From Planctomyces sp. (GTDB lineage: Bacteria; Planctomycetota; Planctomycetia; Planctomycetales; Planctomycetaceae): a stretch of 32,369 nt of DNA. Of the stretch, positions 3,898-31,629 are shown in pieces. Location of the stretch: assembly GCA_005798445.1 (NCBI GenBank), contig SYJG01000355.1:1-32369 (forward strand), in the 5' to 3' direction. Below the pieces are notes generated by a model. That model saw only the letters and a list, made by a program, of their open reading frames with translations. It did no database searches and had not been told where the DNA came from. Made by a program: the position numbers and the translations under genes. Position 1 is the first letter of the stretch; the number at the start of each line of letters is the position of its first letter.

Positions 3898-4028
3898 TAT
3901 ACCTCGCACGGCCATTGGTGAGATGTTTCTGAGCGGTACGGCGCTAGCCGCCGGTCCATCAGTTCGGCCGAGACCGGCGGCTAGCGCCTTGCCGCTCAGA
4001 AGTCCCCAATCTGAACGTGCGAGGTATA
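3898..4028. repeat. nested inverted repeat with 13-bp perfect terminal arms
   Basis: Outer arms TATACCTCGCACG (3898-3910) and CGTGCGAGGTATA (4016-4028) are perfect reverse complements. Inside them, 3927-3956 and 3972-4001 form a second hairpin that matches at 28 of 30 positions around a 15-base loop. The whole element lies downstream of the UbiD gene (which ends at 4070) and upstream of the hydrolase gene (which starts at 3769), so it could end UbiD transcription or be a small non-autonomous mobile element. The rest of the 300-base gap 3770-4069 shows no gene. Confidence 0.85.
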
Positions 4029-4069
4029 GTTTCGCGACGCGGAAGAGTCCTAATGGTCGCGGTACGGTT

Positions 4070-6049
4070 TCACCACAAGCCGTGCAGTGGAGCGTTGTTG
4101 GCGAATAGTGCATCGACTCGCCGAGTGGTCTCAGGTTCTTCGGTTAACGGCGGGGCATGATGCGGTTTGCTGCGGGCATCGATGATGAGTGAGCCTCGGC
4201 AGCCCCAATGCTTTTGTTGGACGAACGCGCCGAGACCGGTGATATCGGCGGCAGGGTTCGAGCGAGTAAATGTCGTCCACAGCCAGTTGTTGATCGTTCG
4301 CGCGGCGAACTCGCTGTCATCGACGAGCGTGATGAGCGGAAAGGCGTTGATCGGCGAGTTCGCGGCGAAGTGTCGCAGGAACTGGCCGATCGATCGTTCC
4401 TGCTCGCCATCGCTGGCTCCGAATCGTGTGTCGAACGGTGGAGCGGCGATGACGAGAACGCCCGGCATTGCGACAAACGGGTCGCGGAAGCCGTTCGGCA
4501 ATGACAAGTCGGACGGGACGATGTTCGGCAACTCGCGGCGCGACGAACCCGCCGCTGCGATGACCAGCTTTGAGCCGGCGTTGAATCCTTGGCCGGAGTA
4601 GTCAAGCGTGTCGATCGTCGTCTGCGTTTGGAAATGCAGGTCGGTGCGCCAATCGACTCGCTCCAGAACGTGGCGAAAGAATTCCGGGATGTCGTGAATG
4701 TCGAGTTGTGGGTTGTCCTCGCCTGCGACAATGAAAAGGTACTTCGCGAGCGACAACTGCCCTTGGCCGAGGATTGCATTGGCACACGTCAATAACTCTT
4801 GCGGTTTACGCGGCGACGCATACGGCACATAACGCTCGCTGCCGATCGCGAGTAGCAAAGGATGGACTCCAGCGGCGTCGATGGCGTGAACCGCTTTCAC
4901 TCCGCCAATAACCGTCGGGATAATCGGGCCGGTGATTTCGTGGATGATGGCACCGAAGCTCGTGTCCTCCTGAGGCGGCCGGCCAACGACGGTGAATGGC
5001 CAGATGGCTCCGTCCCGATGGAAGACCTTTTCGACCCGCAACACGGGGAAGTCGTGAGCCAGGCTGTAGTAGCCCAGATGATCTCCAAATGGACCTTCTG
5101 GTTTCAGGCCGCTCGGATCGACCGTCCCAACGATGCAGAAGTCGGCTTCGGCAGCGATGGACAGCGGCGCTCGGCGCGGGTCTCCTGCCCCCGCCGTGAT
5201 CCGTGACCGCAGGTCTCCATGTTCTCGGCCGTGTTCCTGAATTGGGAGACCTACGGTCGCGTCCAGCGGCGGGGTCAGGAGACCCGCGCCGAGCGCAGTC
5301 CCACGAATCATCCGCACTCGTCGTCCGCCAATCGCACCTGCGAACGTGAGCTCGCTCATTCCTTCCGGCAACGGCATGACCGCAGAGAGTGTCATCGCCG
5401 GTGGACCGCCCACAAAAATGTTGACTCGGAATGGTTCGCCTCGGCGAATTGCGGTGGCGTGATGGACACCAATGCTGCGATGAATCTGGTAGTGCAGACC
5501 GATCTCTTGGTTGGGCTGATACCGTCCGCCGGAAATCTGAACGCGATACATGCCAAGATTGGAGTGCTGCCAGCCGGGCCGGTCGGCATCTTCTGTGTAA
5601 ACTTGCGGCAGCGTGATGAACGCTCCGCCGTCCTTCGGCCAGTTGACGATCTGCGGAAGTTGATCGATCGTGGTCTCATTCGCGAGCACTGGCCCGCGCG
5701 AGACAAACTTTGGCAGCATGTGCAGCGCGGTGAATGGTGCTGAGCGATATCGCCAAGGATTCCGCGTCAGGCACATCGGGTCGATCTTCAACTCGACCAA
5801 GCGTCGCACGGCGTCGAGCGTGTCTCGAAACAGAAATCGAGTGCGCTCGATCGTACCAAACAGATTTGCCAGCAACGGGAAGCGGCAGTCCTTCGGTCGC
5901 GTGAAAAGCAGTGCCGGGCCACCAGCCTGGTAGACGCGACGCTGAATTTCGGCGATTTCCAAATGCGGATCGACTTCGGCATCGATGCGAATCAACTGCT
6001 TCGACCGTTCAAGGTCGGCGACACATTCTTGGAGATTGCGATAGCCCAT
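4070..6049 (-). CDS. UbiD family prenyl-FMN-dependent decarboxylase with inserted segment
   Basis: This 659-residue protein is a member of the UbiD family, which decarboxylates aromatic or unsaturated acids with prenylated FMN made by a UbiX partner; in this lineage ubiquinone or menaquinone synthesis is the likely pathway. Visible signatures are HSNLGMYRVQISGG (about 162-175, prFMN/Mn region), HHATAIRRGEPFRV (196-209), and PEGPFGDHLGYY (317-328), where Glu318 and the following Asp match the acidic active-site pair of bacterial UbiD. Between MIRG (ending at 250) and IAAEADF (from 298) lies a Gly/Pro/Arg-rich stretch encoded by a 130-bp palindrome. Typical family members run straight from one strand to the next at this point, so about 44 residues appear inserted. 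The gene starts at an ATG preceded only by a weak ribosome-binding site. No UbiX gene is in the window. Confidence 0.92.
   Translation of the reverse strand: MGYRNLQECVADLERSKQLIRIDAEVDPHLEIAEIQRRVYQAGGPALLFTRPKDCRFPLLANLFGTIERTRFLFRDTLDAVRRLVELKIDPMCLTRNPWRYRSAPFTALHMLPKFVSRGPVLANETTIDQLPQIVNWPKDGGAFITLPQVYTEDADRPGWQHSNLGMYRVQISGGRYQPNQEIGLHYQIHRSIGVHHATAIRRGEPFRVNIFVGGPPAMTLSAVMPLPEGMSELTFAGAIGGRRVRMIRGTALGAGLLTPPLDATVGLPIQEHGREHGDLRSRITAGAGDPRRAPLSIAAEADFCIVGTVDPSGLKPEGPFGDHLGYYSLAHDFPVLRVEKVFHRDGAIWPFTVVGRPPQEDTSFGAIIHEITGPIIPTVIGGVKAVHAIDAAGVHPLLLAIGSERYVPYASPRKPQELLTCANAILGQGQLSLAKYLFIVAGEDNPQLDIHDIPEFFRHVLERVDWRTDLHFQTQTTIDTLDYSGQGFNAGSKLVIAAAGSSRRELPNIVPSDLSLPNGFRDPFVAMPGVLVIAAPPFDTRFGASDGEQERSIGQFLRHFAANSPINAFPLITLVDDSEFAARTINNWLWTTFTRSNPAADITGLGAFVQQKHWGCRGSLIIDARSKPHHAPPLTEEPETTRRVDALFANNAPLHGLW
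5167..5296. repeat. 130-bp near-perfect palindrome inside ubiD-like gene
   Basis: Outer arms 5167-5196 and 5267-5296 are reverse complements at 29 of 30 positions. Inner arms 5205-5218 and 5245-5258 match at 13 of 14 and share the same centre (about 5231.5), so this is one long dyad with an irregular apex. It is translated in frame as residues about 252-295 of the decarboxylase, with no stop codon in the used frame. Its arms are Gly/Cys-rich DNA (CTCGGCGCGGGTCTCC core), unlike the surrounding coding sequence. Confidence 0.92.
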
Positions 6050-6060
6050 GATGGGATTTT

Positions 6061-6136
6061 CGATTTTTGATTTGCGATTGCCACGACTCCAGCGAGACGT
6101 TGGCAGTTCAAATCGAAAATCGCAAATCTCAAATCG
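6061..6136. repeat. AT-rich inverted repeat upstream of ubiD-like gene
   Basis: Arms 6061-6079 and 6118-6136 are reverse complements at 17 of 19 positions and made of GATTT/AAATC units. It lies between the start of the UbiD-type gene (6049) and the terminator of the Cys-rich gene, so it falls in the leader or promoter of the decarboxylase gene. A role as promoter-proximal hairpin is possible, but nothing else supports it. Confidence 0.6.
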
Positions 6137-6170
6137 AAAATAAAAAGACCCCCGGATTGCTCCGGGGGTC
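6137..6170 (-). terminator. intrinsic (rho-independent) terminator
   Basis: Read on the minus strand, a perfect 10-bp GC-rich stem (GACCCCCGGA, loop GCAA, TCCGGGGGTC; 6147-6170) is followed directly by TTTTTATTTTC. It lies about 50 bases past the stop codon of the Cys-rich HEAT-repeat gene and is the clearest classical terminator in the window. Confidence 0.9.
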
Positions 6171-6219
6171 GTGAAAACCGAGTTGTCAGTTGAGCCTGCC
6201 TTGAAGCGGGCTCGTCAGA

Positions 6220-7386
6220 TTAACTACGCAGTCCGAACAGGTTGCCGAGCTTGTTGGTCTTCTTCGTCGTCGGGCTCGTCGAACGGGACGGGAAGTAGGC
6301 CTTGGGTTCGGTCGGAGGAGCCGGGGCCGGAGCCGGAGCCGCCTCAGGAGCAGCAGCCGGAGTCGTTCCGCAGCCAGTCGCACCGCAACCGGCTTTGCAG
6401 CAACCTTTGTCACCACAGCAGCCATCGACCACTTGATAGCCACAAGCACGCAGACCCTCTTCCGCTTGACGACGAACGCCACGGTCGCAATCGCCCAAGG
6501 CAGCCGTCAACGCGGTGACGATTTCGCACGAGCAGCAGCAAGGATTCTTGCGGAGCTGATCGCCAATCTCGTCGGCCGCTTCCCAGCGAACTCGTTCGTC
6601 GCAGTCATTCAGACCGTAGATGAACGCGGACATGATCTCAGGATTGCAGACGCAGCTATACTTGTCGCCCAAGCGATCAAGAGCTTTGCGGCGATCTTTG
6701 GCATAACAAGACGTCTGAGACTTGTAGATCAGGCACGCAATGTCGGCCGAGTGATCTTCGCAGCAGGTGTTGCCGCAGCAGCTATTGGCATCTTTGCCAC
6801 AGCAAGCATTGGCGTTTTTGCAGCAGGCATTGGCTGCCGGAGCCGCACAGCTAGGACCACACGCTGCGGGAGCGCAGCACGCCTTCGGACCGCACGGAGC
6901 CGCACAGGCCGGAGCACAGGCTGCGGGAGCAGCACAGGCCGGAGCGCACTTCGGAGCACAAGGAGCGGCACAGTTCGGAGCACAGTTGTTGGCACAGGCA
7001 GCGGCCGGGGCCGCACACGCTGGAGCACACGCCGCAGGAGCAGCGCACGCCGGAGCGCACTTCGGAGCACATCCGTTGGTGCCACAGGCAGCGCCTGGAG
7101 CAGCACAGTTCGGATCGCACCCCTTCTTGCAGCAACCTGACGCATCGTGGCCGCAGCAGCTGGGCTTGCAGCAGGGATTCGTCAACGTCGAGCAAGCACG
7201 TTGATACGTGTGGACCGTCGGGCAACATGGCCGAGCGATCGTTGGTTTGCAGCACGAGGGCTGACAGGTCGATGTGCAGCAGCTTGATTTCGCTGTTCCA
7301 CAGCAAGAGTCGAACAGGCCGGCTTGCGCCACCCCACCCAACCCCAGAGTTGCGACCACGGCGGTCAAAGTCTTGATCCAGTTCAT
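6220..7386 (-). CDS. exported Cys/Ala/Pro-rich protein with HEAT-like repeats
   Basis: About 388 residues starting MNWIKTLTAVVATLG, with a signal peptide cleaved after GVAQA. The next 180 or so residues are dominated by short repeats of the type CAPACAAP and CAPKCAP interspersed with CC pairs (CCGKDANSCCGNTCC). Two HEAT-like helical repeats follow (RRKALDRLGDKYSC and ERVRWEAADEIGDQL), with a third at RGVRRQAEEGLRACG, and then an Ala/Pro/Glu-rich tail. Such proteins are known from planctomycete cell envelopes, where disulfide-rich proteins are thought to rigidify the wall; that role is inference here. The ATG at 7386 has GGAG about 11 bases upstream. An open frame continues further upstream to 7557, but its translation has no signal peptide or repeat character. 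A strong terminator follows the gene, so it is likely monocistronic and well expressed. Confidence 0.88.
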   Translation of the reverse strand: MNWIKTLTAVVATLGLGGVAQAGLFDSCCGTAKSSCCTSTCQPSCCKPTIARPCCPTVHTYQRACSTLTNPCCKPSCCGHDASGCCKKGCDPNCAAPGAACGTNGCAPKCAPACAAPAACAPACAAPAAACANNCAPNCAAPCAPKCAPACAAPAACAPACAAPCGPKACCAPAACGPSCAAPAANACCKNANACCGKDANSCCGNTCCEDHSADIACLIYKSQTSCYAKDRRKALDRLGDKYSCVCNPEIMSAFIYGLNDCDERVRWEAADEIGDQLRKNPCCCSCEIVTALTAALGDCDRGVRRQAEEGLRACGYQVVDGCCGDKGCCKAGCGATGCGTTPAAAPEAAPAPAPAPPTEPKAYFPSRSTSPTTKKTNKLGNLFGLRS

Positions 7387-31566: not shown

Positions 31567-31629
31567 GTAGCCTGACTCTCCGAGTCTGACAGTTTTTCGC
31601 AGAATACCCGACTCGGAGAGTCAGGCTAC
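31567..31629. repeat. palindromic repeat with perfect 19-bp arms
   Basis: GTAGCCTGACTCTCCGAGT (31567-31585) and its exact reverse complement (31611-31629) surround a 25-base loop. The repeat lies in the 276-base gap between the Cys-rich gene's stop codon and the start of the four-gene cluster. It may terminate the upstream gene, since the gap otherwise shows nothing recognisable. Confidence 0.88.

Follow-up and report, generated by a model that had tools for sequence, protein, structure and literature searches.

The window analysed here is a stretch of 32,369 nucleotides, positions 1 to 32,369 of a contig of Planctomyces sp. It carries at 4070–6049, on the reverse strand, a gene for a UbiD-family decarboxylase of 659 amino acids, assigned by Pfam and by fold. 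Within this gene lies a palindromic element (5167–5296), which is a dimer of two inverted units arranged about a 26-nt centre. The left outer 29-bp unit (5167–5195, reverse strand) differs from GGCGGGGTCRGGAGACCCGCGCCGAGCGC at one position, and the right outer unit (5268–5296, forward strand) matches it without a mismatch. Inner hairpin motifs are located at 5205–5218 (reverse strand, GGAGACCTKCGGTC type) on the left and at 5245–5258 (forward strand) on the right, and the central spacer between them (5219–5244) varies in length and sequence among copies of the element. The near-perfect dyad described in a first-pass annotation of this DNA is real: re-measurement gives 29 of 30 matching positions for the outer 30-base arms, 13 of 14 for the inner 14-base arms and 44 of 52 for the full 52-base arms. 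No arm match arose by chance when the window was shuffled 100 times. Compared with shuffled sequences, the palindrome folds strongly both as DNA (z = -12.5) and as RNA (z = -13.1), so that the mRNA is predicted to hold a hairpin of about -108 kcal/mol within the coding sequence. An Rfam search of 4000–6500 returned nothing at the gathering score, and none of its weak matches touches the element. Two other features lie near the end of the window. A GTAG REP dimer of the GTAGCCTGACTCTCCGAGTC type, which counts 42 arms in the own genome and 200 in the sister genome G004, sits between two ORFs at 31567–31629. A run of the 8-base unit GGAGCAGA, recognised by eye, extends from 32239 to the contig end at 32369 and probably caused the assembly break.

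The palindrome is open in the UbiD frame and supplies codons 252–295 (5165–5296, reverse strand). Six of ten UbiD orthologues from the same genus lack this segment and four carry a different insert at the site; the eleventh sister genome (G009) has a distant UbiD paralogue only. In same-genus relatives where the site is empty and the match runs over the full length, the UbiD protein has 616–617 amino acids. Outside the genus, 18 of the 19 orthologue loci fetched are short, and the remaining one (L078) has about 10 extra residues. An AlphaFold2 model of the host protein (45 sequences) has a mean pLDDT of 85.3 and a pTM of 0.84. The pLDDT is 92 for residues 241–250, below 50 for residues 254–292, 77 for residues 291–300 and 97 for residues 301–310, and the low values of the insert may partly stem from the alignment, in which it is present in the query row alone. 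The best Foldseek matches of the model are E. coli UbiD, in which, by sequence, about five residues take the place of the insert (query 249–296). In the model, the insert is without confident structure and stays outside the predicted core, on an intact fold. The ORF matches all three Pfam families (UbiD, UbiD_N and UbiD_C), and the proposal of an in-frame insert in an otherwise intact UbiD is supported. The chance that the segment is instead a long-standing conserved portion of UbiD, or an artefact of assembly, is practically negligible. Nothing was found in favour of this; the genome is a draft (553 contigs, 90.45% complete, 5.34% contamination). Relatives without the segment speak against it, and so does the repeat family described below, which is present with different flanks in numerous independent assemblies and, as the exact 29-mer, in five IMG/VR contigs. 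The UbiD segment is genuine, an in-frame insertion of mobile type.

The 29-bp arm has 145 matches at up to three mismatches in the own genome, and a reversed control has none. A DNA search of this genome found the element in at least about 41 places (40 of 126 candidates scored). Sequence stretches were taken around the places of the DNA search and around 100 listed places of the arm, and 22 of the 145 arms fall outside these stretches. The 59 stretches fetched hold 127 arms at up to five mismatches, 123 of them at up to three, in 75 clusters; 48 clusters have two or more arms and 27 have one detectable arm. Alignment, arm search and structure model together bear out the first-pass view of an inserted, dispersed palindromic element that is read in frame: it is missing in relatives, occurs in high copy in the genome, and receives a pLDDT below 50 outside the predicted UbiD core. 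A unit is built from GGAGACCTKCGGTC, about 8 variable bases and GGCGGGGTCRGGAGACCCGCGCC, followed by GAGCGC, and its outer end is GCGCTC/GAGCGC. A separate inverted repeat (L045, 3036–3134), one arm of which contains GGCTCGGCGGGAGCCTC, begins with GCTCGGCG like the 29-bp family and is possibly a related family.

Among 46 dimers, the base at the variable position of one arm gives no indication of its counterpart in the partner arm of the same copy (p = 0.56). It therefore seems to be the unit that evolves rather than the palindrome as a whole, and matching between arms, sought as support for the long palindrome as the basic unit, was not found. For the same reason, near-perfect symmetry alone gives no date for an insertion and does not suffice as a sign of a recent one. 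What stands of that picture is the dispersed insertion; the single long palindrome gives way to a family of REP-like 29-bp units and two-unit dimers. Dimers are roughly 110–170 bp long with inverted arms, and such a form could also be expected of a classical MITE, in which the inverted arms would be the terminal repeats of a DDE transposon and would be moved by a DDE transposase. However, more than a third of the clusters (27 of 75) have one detectable arm. At several of these places the outer 29 bp stands bare, without the inner motif, and other single arms resemble half-dimers, the partner of which was lost or diverged. No obvious target duplication was seen by eye in the flanks printed, and an unsystematic reading noticed no longer element with the same ends. 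We therefore consider a MITE quite unlikely and treat the family as one of short units and their dimers.

A codon model trained on the genes of the window was used to score the left and right flanks of each cluster over 300 nt. Both flanks are coding on the same strand and in the same phase in 43 of the 75 clusters. Of the others, 4 are on the same strand out of phase and 4 on opposite strands, while 17 are coding on one side only and 7 on neither, and these last 24 may hide decayed host genes. In the four same-strand out-of-phase clusters, the upstream gene ends ahead of the element and is not broken by it, its stop codon beginning at distances of 8, 12, 19 and 30 nt. No frame-shifted gene was found among copies with both flanks coding on one strand. 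The in-phase share (43 of 47) compares with one third by chance (p = 1e-16) if clusters are treated as independent. Clusters within a common ORF violate this assumption: six lie in one ORF of contig C418 and three in one of contig C535. These two long ORFs (loci L109 and L096, respectively) each contain an M56 peptidase domain and may encode related proteins that gathered inserts.

A second, less strict rule counts 49 ORFs that read through a copy. Pfam families were detected at E ≤ 0.001 in 33 of the 40 ORFs scanned, the UbiD ORF of the window being scanned apart from these. The insert splits the Pfam matches of PSD1 (two proteins), FGGY_N and T2SSE; the DUF2079, PSCyt2 and Amidohydro_2 matches span it, and elsewhere it lies beside or between domains. 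One copy (L025 on contig C45, element at 2746–2888) is placed about 113 nt from the contig end in an open frame that has a UvrA domain; uvrA is likewise interrupted by a REP in Opitutus terrae (PMC3733652). More than half of the examined copies lie in frame in protein genes and apparently leave them unbroken, and we infer that the in-frame copies are translated within their host proteins.

The joined flanks of 15 other genes were searched in relatives, and relatives below 75% identity were dropped (the paralogue matches of C4 and one of C208). Seven of the 15 genes have relatives with an empty site, six did not align and two were uninformative. The seven encode DeaD, an amidohydrolase, a PSD1 protein, an FGGY kinase, a T2SSE ATPase, a pyridoxal decarboxylase and ThuA, and the best relative of each shares 81–96% protein identity with its counterpart. 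The length of some empty sites departs from that of the joined flanks by a few codons in either direction, and filled and empty sites differ by further substitutions and indels at the junctions. UbiD and these seven genes thus show what is characteristic of RPEs, a palindrome in frame in a conserved gene and missing in orthologues, with translation being presumed. Two sister genomes carry the single unit in the DeaD gene, which is free of it in two more. At the pyridoxal decarboxylase site, L227 and L228, from two sister genomes, have a single unit and the own genome has a dimer. This difference, together with the presence of several copies within one ORF, would fit a spread mainly by recombination between copies, through gene conversion or unequal exchange, rather than by transposition. 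However, the arms of one copy are unmatched at the variable base, and the many unrelated empty sites demand new insertion, which makes recombination as the main route a slightly poorer prospect than a MITE.

Some of these sites are occupied by other REP families in sister species. The UbiD loop holds a dimer of the GTAG..CGGACG type in G005, G010 and G007, where this type counts 97, 157 and 78 arms, respectively, and a dimer of another type (GTAGCC.CAA; 62 arms in the genome) in G001. The ThuA loop holds a third GTAG type in G002 (187 arms) and a fourth in G007. Three of the four GTAG types from the two loops, those that were checked, are in high copy in the carrier genomes. At least three separate insertions have probably occurred at the UbiD loop and as many at the ThuA loop, which would amount to repeated insertion at tolerant loops in both proteins.

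Such reuse of one loop by several REP families might mean that the inserted peptides are useful as linkers or interaction segments and that the genic location is adaptive. Certain peptide types do recur: ARRGSPDP (19 of 49 ORFs) and ALGAGLLTPP (12 of 49) on the left, and GSGDPRRA (23 of 49), RRGQETRAER (10 of 49) and GVGRPAPSA (4 of 49) on the right. However, the host proteins are unrelated, more than one frame is used, and the UbiD insert has no confident predicted structure. A half-element is open in five to six of six frames, no more than shuffles of its composition; a selected design open in all frames was discarded, as mononucleotide shuffles are equally open. Usefulness of the peptides as the cause of the genic location is improbable, and slightly more so than spread by recombination.

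All 12 genomes searched in the genus hold the core at up to two mismatches, with 5 to 143 matches each. In a phylum-wide sample searched at one mismatch, none of 391 other genomes has it, which hinted at a family restricted to the genus; this idea was dropped after a class-wide sample, also at one mismatch, gave 32 positives among 397 genomes, in 20 of 185 genera. Seven of these positives belong to the own genus, and in some of the others the core is matched just once. Across the class, the family thus has a patchy distribution. No match to it was found in plasmid and phage collections. As to the IMG/VR contigs, a single unit lies in frame in an ORF of a 51-kb contig (L279, 1659–2417) that by eye resembles a tyrosine recombinase gene, and another contig (L276, 24–134) has three tandem unit copies at 41-base spacing.

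The location of the copies was compared in six other genomes by small codon models at 40 places, which were the first or exact-match ones among the matches listed, with further listed places of G542, G495 and G617 being left out. In-phase clusters make up 7 of 10 in G664 (one more lies at an edge and is unscored) and 2 of 2 in G617, and 2 of 8 in G542, 0 of 15 in G633, 0 of 4 in G723 and 0 of 6 in G495. One same-strand out-of-phase cluster is present in G542 and one in G495. The units of G633 and G723 are taken as the same family because the inner motif and the core are kept. The in-phase share of the own genome differs from that of G633, which belongs to another genus (p = 2e-5, a contrast picked after seeing the data). 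The location of one and the same family appears to vary with the genus.

Rickettsia and Wolbachia are the lineages in which translated palindromes are most familiar, and the first-pass annotation named these as the precedent. According to the available text of PMC3733652, in-frame intragenic REPs are known beyond these lineages in several bacteria, including in uvrA of Opitutus terrae (Verrucomicrobia); that text also reports different REPs at about one site in the recB genes of two Xanthomonas and the presence of REPs in Planctomycetes. The planctomycete family resembles the REP/REPIN and RAYT system, as described in the same text, in its short imperfect hairpins of 20–40 bp in high copy (here a 29-bp unit with 145 matches), in its singles and inverted dimers with a short spacer (two or more arms in 48 of 75 clusters), and in having some copies just past stop codons and some within genes (PMC3733652). 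It differs in that base counts outside 116 arms show no conserved GTAG/CGTC tag, in that most arms have a second hairpin, and in its mostly genic location in the own genome (43 of 75 clusters in phase within genes, although 0 of 15 are in G633), since REPs are mostly intergenic in that description (PMC3733652). The likeness to RPEs, set by description from the available text of three sources, lies in palindromes of 105–150 bp that are translated in frame within unrelated proteins and are also present between genes (PMC2229807, PMC3767692, PMC10969869); the lineage is another, and the modular 29-bp units here also occur singly. The genic fraction in the own genome compares with "nearly half" of 44 R. 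conorii RPEs in the available description. The GTAG REPINs of the same genus likewise form dimers, are sometimes in frame in genes and use the same UbiD and ThuA loops, whereas their sequence is different and their ends are GTAG. Seven of 21 GTAG REPIN clusters (20 stretches, the first among the matches listed) are in frame in genes, a share that is lower than that of the 29-bp family but not significantly so (p = 0.08). Among the titles and abstract openings listed in a literature search, which mostly did not extend to subscription journals, there was no planctomycete account of the 29-bp family, and terms for Planctomycetes and intragenic do not occur in PMC12306157.

We propose, with a probability of about 0.85, that the UbiD segment represents one copy of a REP/REPIN-like element of Planctomycetia, dispersed and non-autonomous, of which in-frame copies survive selection. 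Insertion would be roughly blind to the reading frame, and copies that shift the frame or strike the core of a fold would be purged by selection. Surviving copies would then gather in tolerant surface loops, and such loops would therefore be struck again by other REP families, since survivors collect there. The hairpin form and the single and dimer organisation suggest that a REP-associated Y1 (HUH) transposase moves the element in trans, and the chance of this is slightly short of even. Y1_Tnp has 91 matches in 11 of 12 genomes of the genus. Linkage of the family to this transposase was sought at 35 of these 91 loci (8 own, 27 sister), and the 29-bp unit was found beside none of them; the best unit matches nearby have 6–9 mismatches of 23, compared with 6–10 after shuffling. 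GTAG hairpins are present at 11 of the same 35 loci. The draft genome G011 has units and no Y1_Tnp match. Alternatively, REP elements of this genus may be loop-insertion elements, several families of which revisit the same loops, perhaps through a preferred local target, with peptides that diversify enzyme surfaces, another genus being extragenic in the sampled copies. This alternative is unlikely, though less so than a MITE.

RPEs and intragenic REPs are already known; distinctive here are the mostly intragenic copies, the shared loops and the contrast between genera. The R. japonica paper, in its available text, left open whether different RPE types within a gene arose at insertion hotspots or by divergence from a single ancestor (PMC3767692). 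In sister species, one and the same loop is taken by different REP families, and this favours hotspots or tolerance. The 29-bp family, largely genic in the own genome and intergenic in the copies read from another genus, provides a natural experiment on when mobile DNA is admitted into proteins. Annotators and structural biologists should expect such inserts, as about 44 residues of this UbiD are derived from a repeat.
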